Made by a program: the position numbers and the translations under genes
Part shown: positions 6,763-23,936 of the stretch, piece after piece
Layout: every line of letters starts with the position of its first letter
Numbering within the stretch: position 1 is the stretch's first letter
The notes under the pieces: model-generated
Told to the model about the DNA's origin: nothing
What the model saw: only the letters and a program-made list of their open reading frames with translations
The model's database searches: none
Source of the DNA: Lysobacterales bacterium
GTDB lineage: Bacteria > Pseudomonadota > Gammaproteobacteria > Xanthomonadales > Rhodanobacteraceae
Length of the DNA: 64,000 nucleotides
Direction: 5' to 3'
Assembly (NCBI GenBank): GCA_002632325.1
Contig: NSJK01000008.1
Location: 62,001 to 126,000 of the forward strand

Positions 6763-8637
6763 TCAGGCGACGTGGCGATCGCCGCGGCGCAGGTGCACCA
6801 GCAGCAGCGAGATCGCAGCCGGCGTCACGCCCGCGATCCGGCGTGCCTGACCGATCGTTTGCGGTTGCGCCTGCTTGAGTTTGGCCAGCACCTCGGCTGA
6901 CAGGCCGCGCACGCGATCGAAATCGAAATTCGCGGGAATGACGCTGTCATCGTGACGGCGATTGCGCGCGATCTCCTCGTTCTGGCGTTCCAGATACCCG
7001 GCATACTTGATGCCGACTTCGACTTGTTCGGCAATGTCCGACTCGTCGATGCCCGGGCCGAAGCCATCGACCGCGACCAGTTCGCGATAGCCGATGCCGG
7101 GGCGGCGCAGCAGGTCCTGCGCGCTGGCTTCGCGCGTGAGCTCTACACCGAGACTCGCAGTCAGTGCGCGACCGAGCGCATTGGCGGGCGATGCCCACAA
7201 CGCGGCCAGTCGTGCCTGTTCGCGTTCCACCGCCTCGCGTTTGTGGCGCAGCGCATCGACCCGCTCCTGCGGCACGCAGCCGAGTTCGAAGCCGCGCTCG
7301 GTCAGACGCAGGTCGGCATTGTCCTCGCGCAATTGCAGACGGTACTCGGCACGCGAAGTGAACATGCGATACGGCTCGCTGGTGCCGTTGGTGATGAGAT
7401 CGTCGATCAGGACGCCGATGTAGGCTTCGTCGCGGCGGGGTGTCCACGATGCTTGCTCACGTGTCGCGCGCGCGGCGTTGAGTCCGGCGATCAGACCTTG
7501 CGCGGCGGCTTCCTCGTAGCCGGTGGTGCCGTTGATCTGACCGGCGAAGTACAGACCTTCGATGGCCTTGGTCTCCAGCGAATCCTTGAGCGCGCGCGGA
7601 TCGAAGTAGTCGTATTCGATCGCGTAACCGGGCCGCGTGATGTGGGCGTTTTCAAGCCCGCGGATCGAACGCACGAGTTCGACCTGCACGTCGAATGGCA
7701 GCGAGGTCGAGATGCCGTTGGGATAGATCTCGTGGGTATCGAGGCCTTCGGGTTCGAGAAAGATCTGGTGCGAGGCCTTGTCGGCAAAGCGCACCACCTT
7801 GTCTTCGATCGACGGGCAGTAGCGTGGCCCGACCCCTTCGATCACGCCGCCATACAGCGGCGAGCGGTCAAGTGCGCCACGGATGAGGTCGTGAGTGCGC
7901 GCGCTGGTGTGGGTGATCCAGCAGCTCACCTGGCGCGGATGATCGGCGCGCGAGCCGAGGAAGGAAAAAACCGGCGCCGGCGCATCGCCGGGCTGTTCCT
8001 CGAGCAGGCTGAAGTCGATGCTGCGGCCATCGATGCGCGGCGGCGTGCCGGTCTTGAGGCGGCCCACCGGCAGTTCGAGGCTGCGCAGCATCTGCGCGAG
8101 ATTCAGCGCCGGCGCATCGCCCGCACGTCCGCCCGGCTGCTGGGTCATGCCGACATGGATCTTGCCGGCGAGAAAGGTGCCGACCGTGAGCACCACGGCT
8201 GCGGCGCGGAATTCAAGGCCTGATTGGGTGACCACGCCGGTCACCCGGCCGGCCTCGATCCGCAGCGCGTCGACGCCCTGCTGGAATAGTGACAAACCGG
8301 GCTGTGTCTCGACCCGACGGCGAATGGCCGCTTTGTACAAAACCCGGTCGGCCTGACACCGCGTGGCGCGAACGGCCGGTCCCTTGGAGGCATTGAGCGT
8401 GCGCCATTGGATCCCGGCATGGTCGGCGGCCCAGGCCATCGCGCCGCCGAGCGCGTCGATTTCGCGCACCAGATGGCCCTTGCCGATACCGCCGATCGCC
8501 GGATTGCAGCTCATCTGGCCGATCGTTTCGATGTTGTGGGTGAGCAGCAGGGTGCGCGCGCCGCTGCGCGCGCTGGCCAGCGCGGCTTCGGTGCCGGCAT
8601 GGCCACCACCGACGACGATCACGTCAAAACGATTCAT
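6763..8637 (-). CDS. mnmG: tRNA uridine-5-carboxymethylaminomethyl(34) synthesis enzyme MnmG
   Basis: FAD-dependent tRNA-modifying enzyme of 624 aa, the usual length. With MnmE it installs the (carboxymethyl)aminomethyl group on wobble uridine 34 of certain tRNAs. The N-terminus has the dinucleotide-binding motif [14 protein letters not shown]. The family signatures [22 protein letters not shown] and [13 protein letters not shown] are both present, and the C-terminal helical domain is complete. The start at 8637 places the Rossmann motif at residue 6 as in other MnmG proteins. In many bacteria mnmG is followed by rsmG and parAB; here it is followed by a two-component pair. Confidence 0.97.
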
Positions 8638-9433: not shown

Positions 9434-9463
9434 GGGGCCGCACTCAGTGCGGCCTCTTTTTTT
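9434..9463 (+). terminator. Intrinsic terminator of the 63-aa gene
   Basis: Stem GGCCGCACT (9436-9444) with AGTGCGGCC (9446-9454), followed by TCTTTTTTT. It lies between this gene and the convergent pepN stop at 9490. Confidence 0.9.
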
Positions 9464-9489
9464 GTGTCTGCGGCGGGCCCCGTATGCCC

Positions 9490-12135
9490 TCAGGCCAGCA
9501 GGCGCGTGAGGATGTCGGCAAGATCCGGGGACAGGTCGCTGCGCGTGCGCAGCCCTTCGAGCTCGGCCTGCATGCGCGCGGCGCGTTGCGGCTCGAAGCG
9601 CCGCCACGGGCCGAAGGCCGTGGCCAGTCGCGCAGCAACCTGCGGGGTGAGCGCATCGACGCGGGCGATCGCATCGGTGAGGAAGCGGTAACCGCCGCCA
9701 TCGGCACGATGGAACACGCGCTGGTTGCGCATCGCCAGCGCACCGACCAGGGCGTAGACCTTGTTCGGATTGTTCCATTGGAACGCGGCGTGTCCACTCA
9801 GCGCGATGCAGCGCTCGAGCGTTTCCGGTCGCGCTTGTGCTGCCTGCAACGCAAACCATTTGTCGAGCACGAGGGCATCGCCTTCGTGGCGCCGGGCGAA
9901 GTCGTCCAACGTGGTCTGGGCATCGGCGGCGCCAGCGCTGGCAAGTGCAGCCAATGCTGCAAGCCGGTCGCTGAGATTGCCGGCCTGCGCGTAGTGCGCA
10001 CTGGCCAGCGCGTGCCGGCTTGCGTCCACGCGCACGAGCGTGGCCAGACAGGCGTTGCGCAGGCGCCGGCGCGCGGCGTTCGCAGTCGATTGCGCAGCGG
10101 TGGCCAGTTCGTGCGTCAAGGCTTGATAGCGCGTGTGCAGGGCATCAACCAAACAACGCGCGAGTCCGTTCTCGACGTTGCAACGTGCGCCATGCACGGC
10201 CTCGGGATCGATCGCCTGCATGCCGTCGCTGAGCGAATGGGCATCGGCGAGCGTGAGCATCTCGGCGACCAGCGCGGGATCGAGGCTGTCGTCGGCGAGT
10301 GCGGCGGCGAGCGCGGCGGCGTACTCATCGAGTGCGCCGGCATCGACGGATCCGTGCGCGAGGGCGTGGGCAAACAGACGACGCGCGACGCTGTCGGCAG
10401 CGAACCAGCGATTGAAGCCGTCCGTATCGTGACGCACCTGCATCAGCAAATGGGATGTGTCGGTGTCGATCTGCAAACGCACCGGCGCCGAGTAGCCGCG
10501 CAAGAGCGAAGGCGTGGGCGCCTCATCGAGCTCGACGAAACGAAGTTCGCCCACCTCCTCGGCAAACAGCACGACGCGCTGCGTGCCGACGGCGGCCTTC
10601 TCGCCGGCCATCTGCAGCGGTAGTGCCTGGCCGTCGCTGCCGAGCAAGGCAAGCGCGATCGAAATCGGCAAGGCCCGCTTCTCGGGCTGGTTCGGCGTGG
10701 CAGGCGTGGCCTGTCGCAATTGCAACACGTACTCGCGGCGCTGCGCGTCATATTCGCCGTGTGCATGCAATTCGGGTGTGCCGGCCTGTGCGTACCAGGC
10801 CAGCCAAGGCATGAGATCGACGCCGTTGGCATCGCCGAGTGCGGCAAGAAAATCCTCGACCGTCACCGCGCAGCCATCGTGGCGTTCGAAGTACAGATCG
10901 AGCCCGCGCCGGAAACCCGCTTCGCCGAGTCGGGTGGCGAGCATGCGCACGATCTCGGCGCCTTTCTCGTAGACCGTCGCGGTGTAGAAATTGTTGATCT
11001 CGCTGTAGCGATCGGGACGCACCGGATGCGCCAGCGGGCCGGCGTCCTCGGCAAACTGCGCGCGCCACAGTGTGCGCACATCATCGATCCGGCGCAGCGT
11101 GCGCGAGGCGACGTCGGACTCGAATTCCTGCTCGCGGTAGACCGTCAGGCCTTCCTTGAGACTGAGCTGGAACCAGTCGCGGCAAGTGACGCGATTGCCG
11201 CTCCAGTTGTGGAAATACTCGTGGCCGACCACAGCGAGCACGTGACGGAAATCGTCATCGGTGGCGCTGTCGGCATCGGCCAGCAGGTATTTGGCGTTGA
11301 AGATGTTGAGACCCTTGTTCTCCATCGCGCCCATCGCGAAATCGTGGGTGACGACGATGTGGAACACGTCGAGATCGTAACAACGACCAAAACGCTGCTC
11401 GTCCCAGGCCATCGCCTGCTTGAGGCACTGCATGGCCCAGGCGCAGCGCGTGATCACGGCCGCATCGGCATGGATGAACAGGCGCACGCGGCGACCTTCA
11501 CGCGTGACGAATTCGTCTTCGATCTGCGCGAGCTCGCCGGCCACCAGCGCGAACAGATAGCTCGGCTTGGGATGCGGATCGACGAAGCGAGCGAAATGCC
11601 GACCATCGGCGAGCACGCCGGCTTCGACCTGATTGCCGTTGGCAAGCAGGAGCGGGAAGCGCTCGCGATCGGCGCGCAACGTCACCGTGTAGCGGGCCAG
11701 CACGTCAGGGCGATCGAGAAACGGCGTGATGTGGCGAAAGCCTTCGGCTTCGCATTGCGTGAGCAGGAAACGACGCTCGCCCGCGCCGCTGGTGTAGAGC
11801 CCCTGCAGCGTGGTATTGCGCTCGGGTGCGATGCGCACCCGTGTTTCCACGATGACCTTGCCGTGCACGTTCGGCAGCGTCAGTCCACGCGCATCGAGTT
11901 GCCATTGCGCAGGTTCGAGCAGCGCGCCATCGACGCGGACGTCGAGCACTTCGAGCGCTTCGGCATCCAGGCGCAGCACTACGCCCGCCTCGCGCTGCTG
12001 AAGGTGCAGGCGGCCGCGCACGAGCGTTGCCAGCGGATCGAGATCGAATTCGAGTTCGACCGCATCGATCTGCCAGGCGGGTGCGCGGTAGTCACGCAGG
12101 TGTATCGTCGGTTTGGCGCCTTGGGGTGCGGGCAT
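9490..12135 (-). CDS. pepN: Aminopeptidase N (M1 family)
   Basis: Cytosolic zinc aminopeptidase of 881 aa, the usual length for the gammaproteobacterial PepN group, which removes N-terminal residues from peptides. Sequence signs: substrate-binding motif MGAMENKGLNIF (about 266-277), zinc site HEYFH (305-309, followed by NWSGNRVTCRDWFQ) and the downstream Glu in the EGLTVYREQEF segment. The C-terminal helical domain (DUF3458-type) is complete. There is no signal peptide. The gene faces the sigma-54 unit and is divergent from the PLP enzyme gene at 12260, with 124 nt between them. Confidence 0.97.
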   Translation of the reverse strand: MPAPQGAKPTIHLRDYRAPAWQIDAVELEFDLDPLATLVRGRLHLQQREAGVVLRLDAEALEVLDVRVDGALLEPAQWQLDARGLTLPNVHGKVIVETRVRIAPERNTTLQGLYTSGAGERRFLLTQCEAEGFRHITPFLDRPDVLARYTVTLRADRERFPLLLANGNQVEAGVLADGRHFARFVDPHPKPSYLFALVAGELAQIEDEFVTREGRRVRLFIHADAAVITRCAWAMQCLKQAMAWDEQRFGRCYDLDVFHIVVTHDFAMGAMENKGLNIFNAKYLLADADSATDDDFRHVLAVVGHEYFHNWSGNRVTCRDWFQLSLKEGLTVYREQEFESDVASRTLRRIDDVRTLWRAQFAEDAGPLAHPVRPDRYSEINNFYTATVYEKGAEIVRMLATRLGEAGFRRGLDLYFERHDGCAVTVEDFLAALGDANGVDLMPWLAWYAQAGTPELHAHGEYDAQRREYVLQLRQATPATPNQPEKRALPISIALALLGSDGQALPLQMAGEKAAVGTQRVVLFAEEVGELRFVELDEAPTPSLLRGYSAPVRLQIDTDTSHLLMQVRHDTDGFNRWFAADSVARRLFAHALAHGSVDAGALDEYAAALAAALADDSLDPALVAEMLTLADAHSLSDGMQAIDPEAVHGARCNVENGLARCLVDALHTRYQALTHELATAAQSTANAARRRLRNACLATLVRVDASRHALASAHYAQAGNLSDRLAALAALASAGAADAQTTLDDFARRHEGDALVLDKWFALQAAQARPETLERCIALSGHAAFQWNNPNKVYALVGALAMRNQRVFHRADGGGYRFLTDAIARVDALTPQVAARLATAFGPWRRFEPQRAARMQAELEGLRTRSDLSPDLADILTRLLA

Positions 12136-19150: not shown

Positions 19151-20065
19151 ATGAACCTCGTTCGCCATCCAGTTGTCGCCCTGTTGCTGTCCGCCTTGCT
19201 CGGTGCCTGCGTCGCGCCCGCGCCCAAACCGGAGGCAGCGCCGCCAGCGCCCGTCGTTCCATCCGTGGCGCCACCCGCGCCGAGCGAGCCGACCGCGCAC
19301 GACAATCTCAATGCGGTGGCCTGGTCGCAGACCGCGATCGAGCATGACCTCATCTATCTCGAGGTCTACCGCGACGCCACCGACACGCTCGCACGTGCAC
19401 TCAAGGACCGCAGTTGGGACGCGCTGCCGCACGAGGAGCGCAGCAATCCGGTGCGCAAGCTCAAGCCGGCGATCATCCTCGACATCGACGAGACCGTGCT
19501 CGACAACTCGCCCTATGCGGCGCGCCTGGTGCGTGCGAACAAGAGTTACGAGGAAGCGACCTGGGCGCAGTGGTGCAACGAGAAGGCCGCCAAGGCGCTG
19601 CCGGGTGCGCGCGAGTTCACCACCTACGCGGCGAGCAAGGGCGTGACCGTGTTCTATCTGTCCAACCGCGCCAAGGATCTCAATGAGGTCACTCTGGCCA
19701 ACCTGCGCAGCGAGGGCTTTCCGATCGCCAAGGGCGAGAACGTGTTTCTCGGCCTGGGCGTCGAAGTGCCCGGCTGCACGCCGGTCGGCAAGAGCGACAA
19801 GGGCTGCCGGCGGCGCCTGATCGCCGAGCACTACCGCGTGCTCATGCAGTTCGGCGACCAGCTCGGCGATTTCCTCGATGCCAATCCCAACACCCTGAGC
19901 GAGCGCCGCGCCGCCGTCGAGCCCTATCTGGACTGGATCGGCGAGCGCTGGTTCGTCTTGCCCAACCCGACCTATGGCTCGTGGGAAGCGGCAGCGTTCA
20001 ACAATGATTTCAAGGCGCCCAAGGCGCAGCGGCATCAGGAAAAGCTCGACAATCTTCGTTATTGA
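19151..20065 (+). CDS. 5'-nucleotidase, lipoprotein e(P4) family (HAD acid phosphatase)
   Basis: Lipoprotein phosphatase of 304 aa. The signal peptide ends in a lipobox (LLGAC, Cys about residue 18) and is followed by a Pro/Ala-rich tether. The HAD class B/C phosphatase core carries motif I DIDETVLDN (nucleophile and general acid Asp), motif II in FYLSNR and later conserved Asp/Lys residues near 'FGDQLGDFLD'. It should be anchored at the outer membrane and strip phosphate from nucleotides such as NMN or 5'-AMP so that the nucleoside can be taken up. A CGGAG ribosome-binding site precedes the start. It stands alone; a nucleoside transporter and ribokinase lie at 28.7-31.0 kb. Confidence 0.92.
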   Translation: MNLVRHPVVALLLSALLGACVAPAPKPEAAPPAPVVPSVAPPAPSEPTAHDNLNAVAWSQTAIEHDLIYLEVYRDATDTLARALKDRSWDALPHEERSNPVRKLKPAIILDIDETVLDNSPYAARLVRANKSYEEATWAQWCNEKAAKALPGAREFTTYAASKGVTVFYLSNRAKDLNEVTLANLRSEGFPIAKGENVFLGLGVEVPGCTPVGKSDKGCRRRLIAEHYRVLMQFGDQLGDFLDANPNTLSERRAAVEPYLDWIGERWFVLPNPTYGSWEAAAFNNDFKAPKAQRHQEKLDNLRY

Positions 20066-20095
20066 TCAATGACTTGATTCGCACTACTTGAAGTA

Positions 20096-20124
20096 TTGCG
20101 TTAATAGTCGCCGCCAACTATAGT
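20096..20124 (+). promoter_or_regulatory. Sigma-70-type promoter of a small RNA
   Basis: TTGCGT (20096-20101) and TATAGT (20119-20124) are separated by exactly 17 nt. Five of six -10 bases match the consensus. It points to a start near 20131, with no start codon before the terminator at 20208-20242. Confidence 0.6.
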
Positions 20125-20130
20125 CTGTGC

Positions 20131-20242
20131 GTCGTTTTTCCGATTCGTGGTGGTATCCCGAAATCGCAAGGACGCCAGACATCCTCCTCCGGCTTGACCG
20201 GAACTTGGCCCGGACGATTCCCATCGACCGGGCTTTCTTTTT
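20131..20242 (+). ncRNA. Probable small RNA (or attenuated leader), about 112 nt
   Basis: Bounded by a sigma-70-like promoter and a very good intrinsic terminator, with no ORF inside. It contains a hairpin TCCGG-cttga-CCGGA (20188-20202), a C/U-rich stretch ATCCTCCTCC (20181-20190) complementary to Shine-Dalgarno sequences, and the terminator hairpin with TCCC in its loop. C-rich single-stranded stretches are known in trans-acting sRNAs such as Xanthomonas sX13, which has a similar length; homology to it is not claimed. The alternative is a leader that attenuates the lipoprotein gene at 20325. Confidence 0.5.
20208..20242 (+). terminator. Intrinsic terminator of the small RNA
   Basis: Stem GCCCGG (20208-20213) with CCGGGC (20228-20233), extended inside by CGAT/ATCG across one A-A mismatch, with loop TCCC, then TTTCTTTTT (20234-20242). 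It sits 83 nt before the next start codon. Confidence 0.85.
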
Positions 20243-20324
20243 GTGTCGTGCGGCAGCGGGCCGCTTGGGGCCGATCTGCTAGAGTGCCGCTCCCCTTGTC
20301 CCTCCTGGAATCCTGGATCCAATC

Positions 20325-21272
20325 ATGAACAAGTCTCTGCTTCGCGTTGCGCTGCTCAGCGCGCTCGCCCTCGTTGCCGTCGGTTGCCAGAAGGCGCCGG
20401 AGTCGGCCACCACGCCGGCTGCCCAGAGCGCTGCGGCGACCTCGCCCGATGGCGCCCTGATGGCTTCGATCGCGGCGCTCAAGGCCGGCGATTTCGACAG
20501 CCTCATGAAGAACTCGCTGCCGCCCGCCGAGTTCGCCAAGATCAAGGCCGACTGGAACAAGGATCAGGATCCGATCACCGACGAGGAACGGCAGAAGTTC
20601 GCCGACACGATCGGCAAGCTCACTGCGCCTGATGCCGAGCAGAAGATCTTTGCCGAGATCGAGCCGCAACTGACCGCATTCGACGCGCAGTACCAGCAGC
20701 AGATTCCGATGTACGTTGCGATGGGCTCGGGCTGGCTGCAGGGCATGGTGCAGCAGAACAAGGACATGTCCGAGGAATCCAAGCAACAGGCGCTGGCCGC
20801 GATCAACGCGCTCGGTGCCTGGGTCACCAAGACCCGCTTCACCGATCCGGCCAAGGTCAAGCAGGTGATCGCGATCGTGGTCAAGGCCGCGCGTGACCTC
20901 AACCTCAAGTCGCTCGACGAAGCGCGTGCGCTGAGCTACGAGCAGGGCATGCAGAAAGGCAAGGCCGCATTCGCCGCGTTCAAGGACGCCCTCAACGTCT
21001 ACGGTTTCTCCTTCGATCAGACGCTCGATTCGATCAAGCCCGAAGTCGTGAGCAACGACGGCAAGACCGCCAAGATCAAGATGAGCTACACCCTGCTCGG
21101 CACGCCGCTGACTGGCGAGGCGGACATGGTCAACGTCGATGGTCGCTGGTACGGCAAGGACACCATCGAGAAGATCAAGGAAAAGGCCGCCGCGCAGGCG
21201 GGTGGTGAAGGCGCCGCACCGGCTGTTGCGCCGGCTGCCGAAGCACCCGCCACGCCCGAAACGCAAGGCTGA
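20325..21272 (+). CDS. Predicted lipoprotein of unknown function
   Basis: A 315-aa lipoprotein with signal and lipobox LVAVGC (Cys about residue 21). A Thr/Ala/Ser-rich spacer leads to a mostly helical body: 'IAALKAGDFDSLMKNSLPPAEF' resembles a DUF4878/NTF2-like opening, and beta-strands near 'KIKMSYTLLGTPLTGEADMVNVDGRWY' resemble the end of such a domain. The C-terminus is a low-complexity Ala/Pro/Glu tail. It should sit in the outer or inner membrane, facing the periplasm. The gene forms a single unit: a possible -10 box TAGAGT at 20280-20285, and a terminator 80 nt after the stop. Function unknown. Confidence 0.75.
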   Translation: MNKSLLRVALLSALALVAVGCQKAPESATTPAAQSAAATSPDGALMASIAALKAGDFDSLMKNSLPPAEFAKIKADWNKDQDPITDEERQKFADTIGKLTAPDAEQKIFAEIEPQLTAFDAQYQQQIPMYVAMGSGWLQGMVQQNKDMSEESKQQALAAINALGAWVTKTRFTDPAKVKQVIAIVVKAARDLNLKSLDEARALSYEQGMQKGKAAFAAFKDALNVYGFSFDQTLDSIKPEVVSNDGKTAKIKMSYTLLGTPLTGEADMVNVDGRWYGKDTIEKIKEKAAAQAGGEGAAPAVAPAAEAPATPETQG

Positions 21273-21350
21273 GCCTGTCTGCATCGAGCGTGCAGGCCTG
21301 AATTTCGCGGGCTGCACGCGATGTGCGCCATGGCATCAGCTGCAGCAAGA

Positions 21351-21377
21351 AAAGTCCCGCCTTGTGCGGGACTTTTT
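21351..21377 (+). terminator. Intrinsic terminator after the lipoprotein gene
   Basis: Perfect 10-bp stem AAAGTCCCGC (21351-21360) with GCGGGACTTT (21366-21375), loop CTTGT, and a run of five T at 21373-21377. It ends only 27 nt before the plsB start codon, so plsB must have its own promoter inside that gap or upstream. Confidence 0.85.
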
Positions 21378-21404
21378 GTATCCGCGTTGCCCTAGACTTC
21401 GCGC

Positions 21405-23936
21405 ATGAATGATTCATCCCCACCACCGACACCCCAACCGATCGCACAAGCTCCGGGTTGGTTGCGCATCCTCGGCAGTCTGCTGCGACCGTGGCTGCGC
21501 ATCCAGCGCACGCCCGAGGACGTGCATGCCCTGCTGCCCGAGGATCCACGTCCGACGGTGTATCTGATCGAGCGCTACGGACTGTCCGACAACCTGATCC
21601 TCGAACAAGCTTGTCAGGAAGCCGGCTTGCCTTCGCCCTATGCCGCGGCCGAGCGTCTGCCGATCAGTCGTCGCCGCGCGGTGATTACGCTGTCACGCCG
21701 GCCGCCGATGTTCGGACGCGCGCCGCATCCGACTCGCTCTGAAACCTTGAGTCTGCTCGCCGAAGCGGTGCGCAGCGCACCCGAACTCGATGTGCGGCTG
21801 GTGCCGGTATCGATCTTCGTCGGTCGCGCGCCGCAGCGCGAATCGGGCTGGTTCCGCGTGCTGTTCTCGGAAAACTGGGTGGTCGTCGGCCGCTTCCGCC
21901 GCCTGCTCGCGCTGGCGCTCAATGGCCGCGACACCCTGGTCGAGTTTGCCGCGCCGGTGAGCCTGCGCGACGTGGTCGCCGGCGAAAGCAGTACCGAGCG
22001 CGGCGTGCGCAAGTTGCAGCGCATCGTGCGCGTGCATTTCCGCCGCGTGCGCGCCGCGGTCATCGGTCCCGACCTTTCGCATCGACGCACCCTGATCGAC
22101 GGCGTCGTCAATGCCGCGCCGGTGCAACAGGCGATCGATGTCCATGCCAATCGCGAAGGCATCTCGCGCGAGGCTGCGGCGGCCAAGGCGCGCGCGTTTG
22201 CCTGGGAAATCGCCGCCGATCAATCGCATCTGGTGGTGCGCTCGGCGTCGTTCCTGCTCACCGCGCTGTGGGAGAAGATCTACCGCGGCGTGCACATGCA
22301 TCACTTCGACAAGCTGCGCGAGGTCGCTCCGGGCCACGAAGTGATCTTCGTGCCCTGCCATCGCAGCACCACCGACGATGCGCTCTTGCCCTACCTGCTC
22401 TATCGCAACGGCCTCGCGGTGCCGCACATCGCCGCCGGCGTCAATCTCAACCTGCCGGTGATCGGTGGCCTGTTGCGTCGTGGTGGTGCGTTCTTCCTGC
22501 GCCGCAGTTTCAGCGATCCGTTCTATTCGACGGTGTTCCGCGAATACATGAGCCAGCTCATCGCGCGCGGGATTTCGCTGATGTACTTCATCGAGGGCGG
22601 GCGCTCGCGCACCGGGCGCATGCTCGCGCCGCGCGGCGGCCTGCTGTCGATGACCCTGCGCAGCTTCCTGCGCCAGCCCGATCGACCGGTGGTGTTCCAG
22701 CCGGTCTACATCGGCTACGAGAAAGTCATGGAAGGCGAGTCCTACATCGGCGAACTCTCGGGCAAGGCCAAGGAAAAGGAATCCTGGGGTGGTTTGTTGC
22801 GCAGCCTCGGCGTACTGCGCCGCAATTACGGCGCGGTCACGGTGAATTTCGGCGAGGCGTTGTTTCTCACTCCGCTGCTCGACGAGATCGAACCCGACTG
22901 GCGCGCCGCCACTGCCGATCCCGAGGCCAAACCCAACTGGCTCAAGAGCGCGGTCGATACGCTCGGCGAGCGCATCCTCGTCAACATCAATCGCGCCGCC
23001 GACGTCAATCCGGTCAACCTGCTCGGTATCACCCTGCTCGCCACGCCCAAGCATGCGATGTCCGAATCCGATCTGCTCGCCCAGCTCGAATTGTCCAGGA
23101 CCTTGCTGCAGGCGCTGCCGTATTCCGAGCGCGTTACCGTATCGGCGCTGTCGGCCGAGCAGATCATCGCCCATGGCGAGACCATGCAATGGATCCGCCG
23201 CGTCAGTCATCCGCTTGGCGATGTGCTGCTTGCCGACGACAAGGCCGGCGTGCTGCTGAGCTACTTCCGCAACAACGTCAGTCATCTGTTCGCGTGCTCG
23301 GCGTGGGTCGCCTGCTGCCTGCTCAACAATCGGCGCATCGCGCGCTCCTCGATCCTGCGTCTGGGCCGCATCGTCTATCCGTTCGTGCAGGCCGAGCTGT
23401 TCCTGCCCTGGGACGAGGAGGAATTCGCCACGCGCGTGCAGCAGACCATCGATTTCCTCATCGCCCGTGATCTGCTGCACGCCAGTGCCGACGGTCGCAT
23501 CATCAGTCGTGGGCCAGGCCAGACCGATGCGGCGTTCCAGTTGCGCGCGCTCGCCGACAATCTGCTGCCGGCGATCGAGCGCTACTACATCGCACTCGCG
23601 CTGCTGGTGAAGAACGGTTCGGGCACGCTCACTTCAAGCGAGCTCGAAAACCTGTGCACGCTCAGCGCGCAGCGGCTGTCGCTGCTGCAGGAGCTCAACG
23701 CGCCCGAGTTCTTCGACAAGAGCCTGTTCCGCGGCTTCATCCAGAAACTGCGCGAGCGCCGCGTGGTGTGGAACGACGATGCCGGCAAACTTGCCTTCGA
23801 TGCCTCGCTGGCCGTGGTCGCCAACGACGCACGCGTGGTTCTCAGTCGCGAGATCCGCCACGGCATCCTCAAGCTGACCCCGGAAAAACACGCCCAACTC
23901 GCGCGTGACAGCGCGGCTGAAAGCGACTCGGATTGA
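21405..23936 (+). CDS. plsB: Glycerol-3-phosphate 1-O-acyltransferase PlsB
   Basis: Membrane-bound acyltransferase of 843 aa, the normal length, which adds the first acyl chain to glycerol-3-phosphate at the inner membrane. The acyltransferase blocks are clear: block I H319-RSTTD324 (HX4D catalytic pair), block II around GGAFFLRRSF, block III YFIEGGRSRTGRM and block IV in PVVFQPVYIGYEK. The N-terminal ~300 residues and C-terminal helical region match PlsB rather than the short PlsC type. No Shine-Dalgarno sequence precedes the ATG, and a -10-like TAGACT ends just 6 nt before it, so the mRNA may be leaderless. Confidence 0.97.
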   Translation: MNDSSPPPTPQPIAQAPGWLRILGSLLRPWLRIQRTPEDVHALLPEDPRPTVYLIERYGLSDNLILEQACQEAGLPSPYAAAERLPISRRRAVITLSRRPPMFGRAPHPTRSETLSLLAEAVRSAPELDVRLVPVSIFVGRAPQRESGWFRVLFSENWVVVGRFRRLLALALNGRDTLVEFAAPVSLRDVVAGESSTERGVRKLQRIVRVHFRRVRAAVIGPDLSHRRTLIDGVVNAAPVQQAIDVHANREGISREAAAAKARAFAWEIAADQSHLVVRSASFLLTALWEKIYRGVHMHHFDKLREVAPGHEVIFVPCHRSTTDDALLPYLLYRNGLAVPHIAAGVNLNLPVIGGLLRRGGAFFLRRSFSDPFYSTVFREYMSQLIARGISLMYFIEGGRSRTGRMLAPRGGLLSMTLRSFLRQPDRPVVFQPVYIGYEKVMEGESYIGELSGKAKEKESWGGLLRSLGVLRRNYGAVTVNFGEALFLTPLLDEIEPDWRAATADPEAKPNWLKSAVDTLGERILVNINRAADVNPVNLLGITLLATPKHAMSESDLLAQLELSRTLLQALPYSERVTVSALSAEQIIAHGETMQWIRRVSHPLGDVLLADDKAGVLLSYFRNNVSHLFACSAWVACCLLNNRRIARSSILRLGRIVYPFVQAELFLPWDEEEFATRVQQTIDFLIARDLLHASADGRIISRGPGQTDAAFQLRALADNLLPAIERYYIALALLVKNGSGTLTSSELENLCTLSAQRLSLLQELNAPEFFDKSLFRGFIQKLRERRVVWNDDAGKLAFDASLAVVANDARVVLSREIRHGILKLTPEKHAQLARDSAAESDSD

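Follow-up and report, generated by a model that had tools for sequence, protein, structure and literature searches.

The window, as we call the whole stretch of 64,000 nucleotides that was analyzed, carries on its forward strand an acid phosphatase gene, a lipoprotein gene, and plsB. Between the first two lies a sequence that had been predicted, from the DNA alone, to encode a small RNA (sRNA) with an anti-Shine-Dalgarno stretch. The features of the region are as follows.

19151 to 20065, + strand: gene for a HAD class IIIB acid phosphatase (PF03767), the upstream syntenic marker (Pfam, synteny)
20064 to 20076, + strand: IHF-type site GATCAATGACTTG, matching WATCAANNNNTTR at 8 of 9 positions (upstream alignment, motif count)
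20096 to 20101, + strand: -35 box TTGCGT, within the conserved block GTATTGCNTTA at 20093 to 20103 (sequence, locus comparison, upstream alignment)
20119 to 20124, + strand: -10 box TATAGT (sequence, locus comparison)
20131 to 20242, + strand: sX14-like small RNA transcript of about 110 nt, start inferred
20133 to 20174, + strand: 5' hairpin, its sequence varying among lineages (predicted folds)
20177 to 20187, + strand: unpaired segment of the GACATCCTCCT type, with the C-rich presumed seed ATCCTCC at 20181 to 20187 (predicted unpaired probability)
20188 to 20202, + strand: middle hairpin TCCGG-CTTGA-CCGGA (pairing across aligned homologues)
20207 to 20242, + strand: intrinsic terminator with TCCC loop and T run (fold, alignment)
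20325 to 21272, + strand: uncharacterized lipoprotein gene without a Pfam match, a downstream syntenic marker on which the RNA does not depend (synteny)
21405 to 23936, + strand: plsB, glycerol-3-phosphate acyltransferase, a syntenic marker (synteny)

The two promoter boxes, read from the window sequence, are separated by a 17-nt spacer. The sigma-70 promoter of the original prediction is thus present, but "good" overstates its fit to the consensus, which it matches at 3 of 6 positions in the -35 box and 5 of 6 in the -10 box. A generic promoter scan of the window did not list TTGCGT-N17-TATAGT. The terminator that had been called excellent is real and reads GGCCCGG-A-CGAT-TCCC-ATCG-A-CCGGGCT followed by TTTCTTTTT, with the TCCC of the loop at 20219 to 20222. 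A generic terminator scan of the window missed it too; the A/A mismatch in the stem is the probable reason. We placed the transcription start near 20131 by comparison with locus L010, where the 5' end of Rfam sX14 lies 8 nt past the -10 box; from there to the T run, the RNA would measure about 110 nt, where about 112 nt had first been proposed. ATCCTCCTCC (20181 to 20190), originally noted next to a small hairpin, overlaps the 5' arm of this hairpin. Open reading frames called mechanically overlap the stretch, for example, one of 51 amino acids with a GTG start at 20127 to 20282. None is gene-like, and a small ORF was rejected since length differences among the homologues, including the nearest one, are not multiples of three and so break the frame. 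Folding the single sequence gave only a modest gain in stability over shuffled sequences (z of -1.8). With this value and empty generic scans, the window sequence alone would not settle the question of an sRNA gene; the decisive support comes from conservation rather than from folding of the single sequence.

We therefore turned to related loci. In near relatives found by DNA similarity, those with names being Dokdonella species, the conserved 3' part of the RNA is flanked by a HAD-type acid phosphatase gene on one side and, on the other, by the lipoprotein gene preceding plsB. In most regions upstream of lipoprotein homologues across the order, one layout recurs: a promoter TTGCNT-17/18-TANNNT is followed by a 5' hairpin, an unpaired C-rich segment, a hairpin with CCGG, and finally a terminator, about 90 to 125 nt altogether. 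The RNA is absent upstream of the lipoprotein homologue in some lineages (e.g., L028, L034, L038 to L040, L045, and L046). A covariance-model search had been proposed as a check. Rfam at gathering thresholds gave no match in the window, but a model built here from 24 sequences (R1) found the RNA in 177 of the 299 genomes of the order at E values of at most 0.01. The E values of R1 are somewhat optimistic, and its matches in about 26 genomes outside the order (E of 1e-4 to 1e-2) are at background level and were treated as arising from GC-rich terminators. Among named genera, R1 matches upstream of the lipoprotein gene occur in Dokdonella, Rhodanobacter, Dyella, Frateuria, Tahibacter, and Oleiagrimonas. 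In family f8, which contributed no members to R1, the matches lie between pyrF and plsB. At most loci with surroundings inspected, the RNA follows an acid phosphatase gene and/or pyrF and usually precedes the lipoprotein gene and plsB. Either the phosphatase gene or pyrF is seen upstream because the gene order in L010 is phosphatase, pyrF, sRNA. In L010 and L108, pyrF either separates the phosphatase gene from the sRNA or immediately precedes the sRNA; pyrF is missing from this place in Dokdonella, and the sRNA stays near plsB throughout. One R1 match (L103, with short surroundings) could not be linked to the phosphatase/pyrF-plsB neighborhood. Another, in L107, has no promoter, is probably false, and was counted as background, and a further match in the window itself (8337 to 8403, E of 0.18) is at chance level.

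In Xanthomonadaceae, the corresponding genomic place is occupied by sX14, also known as sRNA-Xoo3 (RF02233). The window sequence scores only 14.4 bits (E of 2) over the full length of the Rfam model, far from its gathering score of 80. Independently of the DNA similarity search, the Rfam model finds matches in family f2 of the same order, at loci that share the neighborhood seen in the window. Other Xanthomonadaceae loci at the corresponding place also remain below the gathering score (42 to 52 bits), which indicates that RF02233 is a narrow branch of an orthologous group. We built a second model (R2) from the family of the window alone, without any Xanthomonadaceae sequence. It recovers f8, further families, and the basal Xanthomonadaceae loci L111, L112, and L018 at the syntenic place (E of 1e-4 to 3e-4). 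L112 is matched over identical nucleotides by R2 (E of 3.4e-4) and RF02233 (E of 7.6e-5), and L018 is matched by R2 with E of 1.5e-4 and by RF02233 with E of 6.8e-4. For L010, L011, L014, and L016, which represent typical Xanthomonas and Stenotrophomonas-like forms, the R2 matches are weak (E of 0.2 to 0.5), yet at exactly the right place. Synteny (phosphatase gene or pyrF upstream; lipoprotein gene and plsB downstream where kept), sequence-structure homology through intermediates matched by both models, and a sigma-70-type promoter at a distance matching the mapped 5' end all agree. The RNA of the window is thus the Dokdonella orthologue of Xanthomonas sX14/sRNA-Xoo3, although it does not match RF02233 as curated.

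The two RNAs have in common the genomic place, promoter type, and start distance as well as three modules (5' hairpin, CCGG hairpin, and terminator), with a C-rich stretch ahead of the CCGG hairpin. They differ in the sequences of the 5' hairpin and terminator and in the C-rich segment, which is UGUCC in sX14 and AUCCUCC in the window, where it is longer and more open in predicted folds. The downstream gene at Xanthomonas-type loci is also different from that in the window. Gene anatomy, conservation, and orthology come from the comparisons made here. For the Xanthomonas orthologue only, the literature has demonstrated a transcript with a mapped 5' end, changes with growth phase, and an abundance that depends on Hfq. 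The 93-nt sRNA-Xoo3 was verified by Northern blotting and 5' RACE; its abundance changes with growth phase and drops strongly without Hfq (PMC3039613). Its deletion gave no visible phenotype, and 26 protein spots were altered, redox and stress proteins among them (PMC3039613). The same study described it as conserved in Xanthomonas and knew of no related RNA from any other species (PMC3039613). In Xanthomonas campestris pv. vesicatoria, sX14 drops strongly in an hfq mutant (PMC3771888). In our literature search, we found no report of direct targets of sX14/Xoo3 and, among studies of Stenotrophomonas and Lysobacter sRNAs, nothing on an sX14-like RNA.

We compared other known RNAs with C-rich segments. 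sX13 (RF02232), from the same bacterial order, likewise carries single-stranded C-rich elements whose presumed partners are G-rich motifs in mRNAs. It represses mRNAs with such motifs near the start, is Hfq-independent, and uses loops (PMC3771888), whereas sX14 is Hfq-dependent, and the sX13 locus follows polA. There is no RF02232 match in the window. In the source genome, an sX13 orthologue (52.8 bits; gathering score, 50) follows polA, at L098:1948-2055 (G000:C26, ~9447-9554, + strand). This orthologue also matches the sX14-like model weakly, and weak matches of this kind occur in several other genomes of the family. The second R1 match in the source genome (27.7 bits) is this same sX13 and was rejected as a paralogue. 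Anti-hemB (RF02837) and the Betaproteobacteria toxic sRNA (RF02278) resemble the window RNA in having a CUCCUCC-type segment, a hairpin, and a GC-rich terminator. Their scores of 15.6 bits (gathering score, 49.5) and 15.0 bits (gathering score, 50), and their origin in other lineages, leave this at a resemblance of chance level. A weak Rfam match to CyaR in the window is likewise at chance level.

Of 60 homologous loci, 58 have an upstream sigma-70-type promoter with a spacer of 16 to 18 nt, compared with 1.2 in shuffled sequences. The IHF-type site at 20064 to 20076 is located 32 nt upstream of the first -35 base and overlaps the phosphatase stop codon. Using the IHF consensus WATCAANNNNTTR, we found a match of at least 8 of 9 positions in 44 of 57 distinct loci, always 31 to 32 nt before the -35 box, where a control gave 3.8 expected anywhere in the 55-nt region. 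Perfect matches occurred in 20 of the 57 (0.19 in the control), and as the loci are related, these counts are not independent trials. Families that differ in their upstream genes nevertheless share the block. No such block was seen in L047 or in the TTGACA-based promoters of f8. An FNR site was also considered, but the full TTGAT-N4-ATCAA is found in few species only, and the right-hand part of the block fits IHF in most. The source genome encodes both IhfA and Hfq, and from the motif, we infer that IHF may bind the upstream block.

The hairpins are kept in relatives, as the original prediction required. Across 55 distinct sequences, 92% of the cells of the middle hairpin are paired, largely through a CCGG that stays the same and with a few two-sided changes, and the terminator helix has two-sided changes at 6 of 8 pairs; these counts lean toward the modeled structure since the alignment had been fitted to it. 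The segment ahead of the middle hairpin has a mean predicted unpaired probability of 0.82 in 27 homologous transcripts, compared with 0.43 for the whole RNA, and is least open in some Xanthomonadaceae forms; in the window, 20181 to 20187 is predicted to be 97% unpaired. The segment reads UUCCCYY in most lineages, AUCC(U/C)CC in the group of the window, AUCCUC in f8, and UGUCC in Xanthomonadaceae. The conserved feature is therefore a C-rich segment and not a strict anti-Shine-Dalgarno sequence, as the exact CCUCC occurs in some lineages only. Of the two C/U-rich elements pointed out originally, the TCCC of the terminator loop is confined to near relatives, while the C-rich segment is conserved, so the anti-Shine-Dalgarno part of the prediction is supported only in part. 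Pairing of the segment with ribosome-binding sites is likely. A search of the source genome for GGAGGAGGAT-N3-12-ATG as a full-complement target found none.

A free-standing sRNA gene is strongly supported by the promoter, structure, terminator, and genomic place kept across the order and by the experimentally verified Xanthomonas orthologue, and we consider it probable that this gene encodes a trans-acting sRNA, the orthologue of sX14/Xoo3. From the sigma-70 promoter, probably aided by IHF bound just upstream, transcription would run for about 110 nt and stop at the terminator of the gene itself. The RNA is probably bound at its U-rich 3' end by Hfq and thereby stabilized. The unpaired C-rich segment between the first two hairpins may then pair with target mRNAs at G-rich stretches in or close to their ribosome-binding sites, and such pairing would be expected to lower translation of these mRNAs. 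Several observations speak against this reading as a whole: the low score of the window with RF02233, the weak R2 matches of the Xanthomonas and Stenotrophomonas-like forms, whose C-rich segment is also shorter and less open in predicted folds, the search for a full-complement target that found none, and the Xoo3 deletion that gave no visible phenotype.

An sRNA acting otherwise is unlikely, for example, one that titrates a protein of the CsrA or Hfq type or contacts another sRNA through the invariant CCGG hairpin. The CCGG/CCGG hairpin is nearly invariant, beyond the needs of a mere spacer stem. However, the most accessible conserved part is C-rich and lacks the GGA motifs expected for CsrA titration, and sX13, a C-rich RNA of the same bacteria, works by pairing (PMC3771888).

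The original prediction had named an attenuator of the lipoprotein gene at 20325 as the alternative. In many genomes, the terminator indeed lies 80 to 300 nt before the lipoprotein start on the same strand, and in f8, it lies about 60 nt before plsB; a leader controlling the lipoprotein-plsB pair was considered as well. Yet the f8 loci showed no lipoprotein gene in the interval from the RNA to plsB, and L010, which matches Rfam sX14 in full, has a convergent tryptophan halogenase gene next to the RNA, with its lipoprotein gene some 10 kb distant. We reject the attenuator or leader because the RNA persists both with plsB as its immediate downstream neighbor and with a convergent gene in that position. 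The alignment, inspected by eye, holds no conserved antiterminator alternative to the fold, and the Xanthomonas orthologue is a discrete RNA with Hfq-dependent abundance, so we regard this explanation as improbable. Least credible of all is that the stretch merely ends the phosphatase mRNA, providing its 3' end and terminator, and that the promoter is there by chance: the distance from the end of the gene to the -35 box is about 30 nt, and 20207 to 20242 is the first terminator after it, but the promoter is kept in 58 of 60 loci whether phosphatase or pyrF lies upstream, the C-rich segment and middle hairpin are conserved though unnecessary for termination, and Xoo3 has its own RACE-mapped 5' end (PMC3039613).

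Hfq-dependent sRNAs with C-rich segments are well known, and as a free-standing trans-acting sRNA, the RNA of the window is ordinary in kind. It nevertheless solidly and usefully extends a supposedly Xanthomonas-specific sRNA across the order: Xoo3 is one branch of an RNA kept with its promoter and neighborhood through much of the order, and the narrow Rfam family RF02233 could be widened. The alignment names an accessible segment and a likely upstream regulator, IHF, so that targets and control become testable in harmless laboratory species. More speculatively, and less likely than not, the RNA may be an order-wide core sRNA that is switched by IHF through a site at fixed distance from its promoter and that broadly restrains mRNAs whose ribosome-binding sites are G-rich; the sX14 of plant pathogens would then be a derived form of this RNA.

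Many genomes of the order keep a member of the lipoprotein family beside plsB. Near relatives share a -10-like TAGAGTGCCGC block ahead of the lipoprotein gene (20280 to 20290 in the window), which suggests that this gene may be transcribed from a separate promoter. In the interval separating it from plsB, AAAAGTCCCGCCTTGTGCGGGACTTTTT at 21350 to 21378 looks symmetrical and is possibly a two-way terminator.
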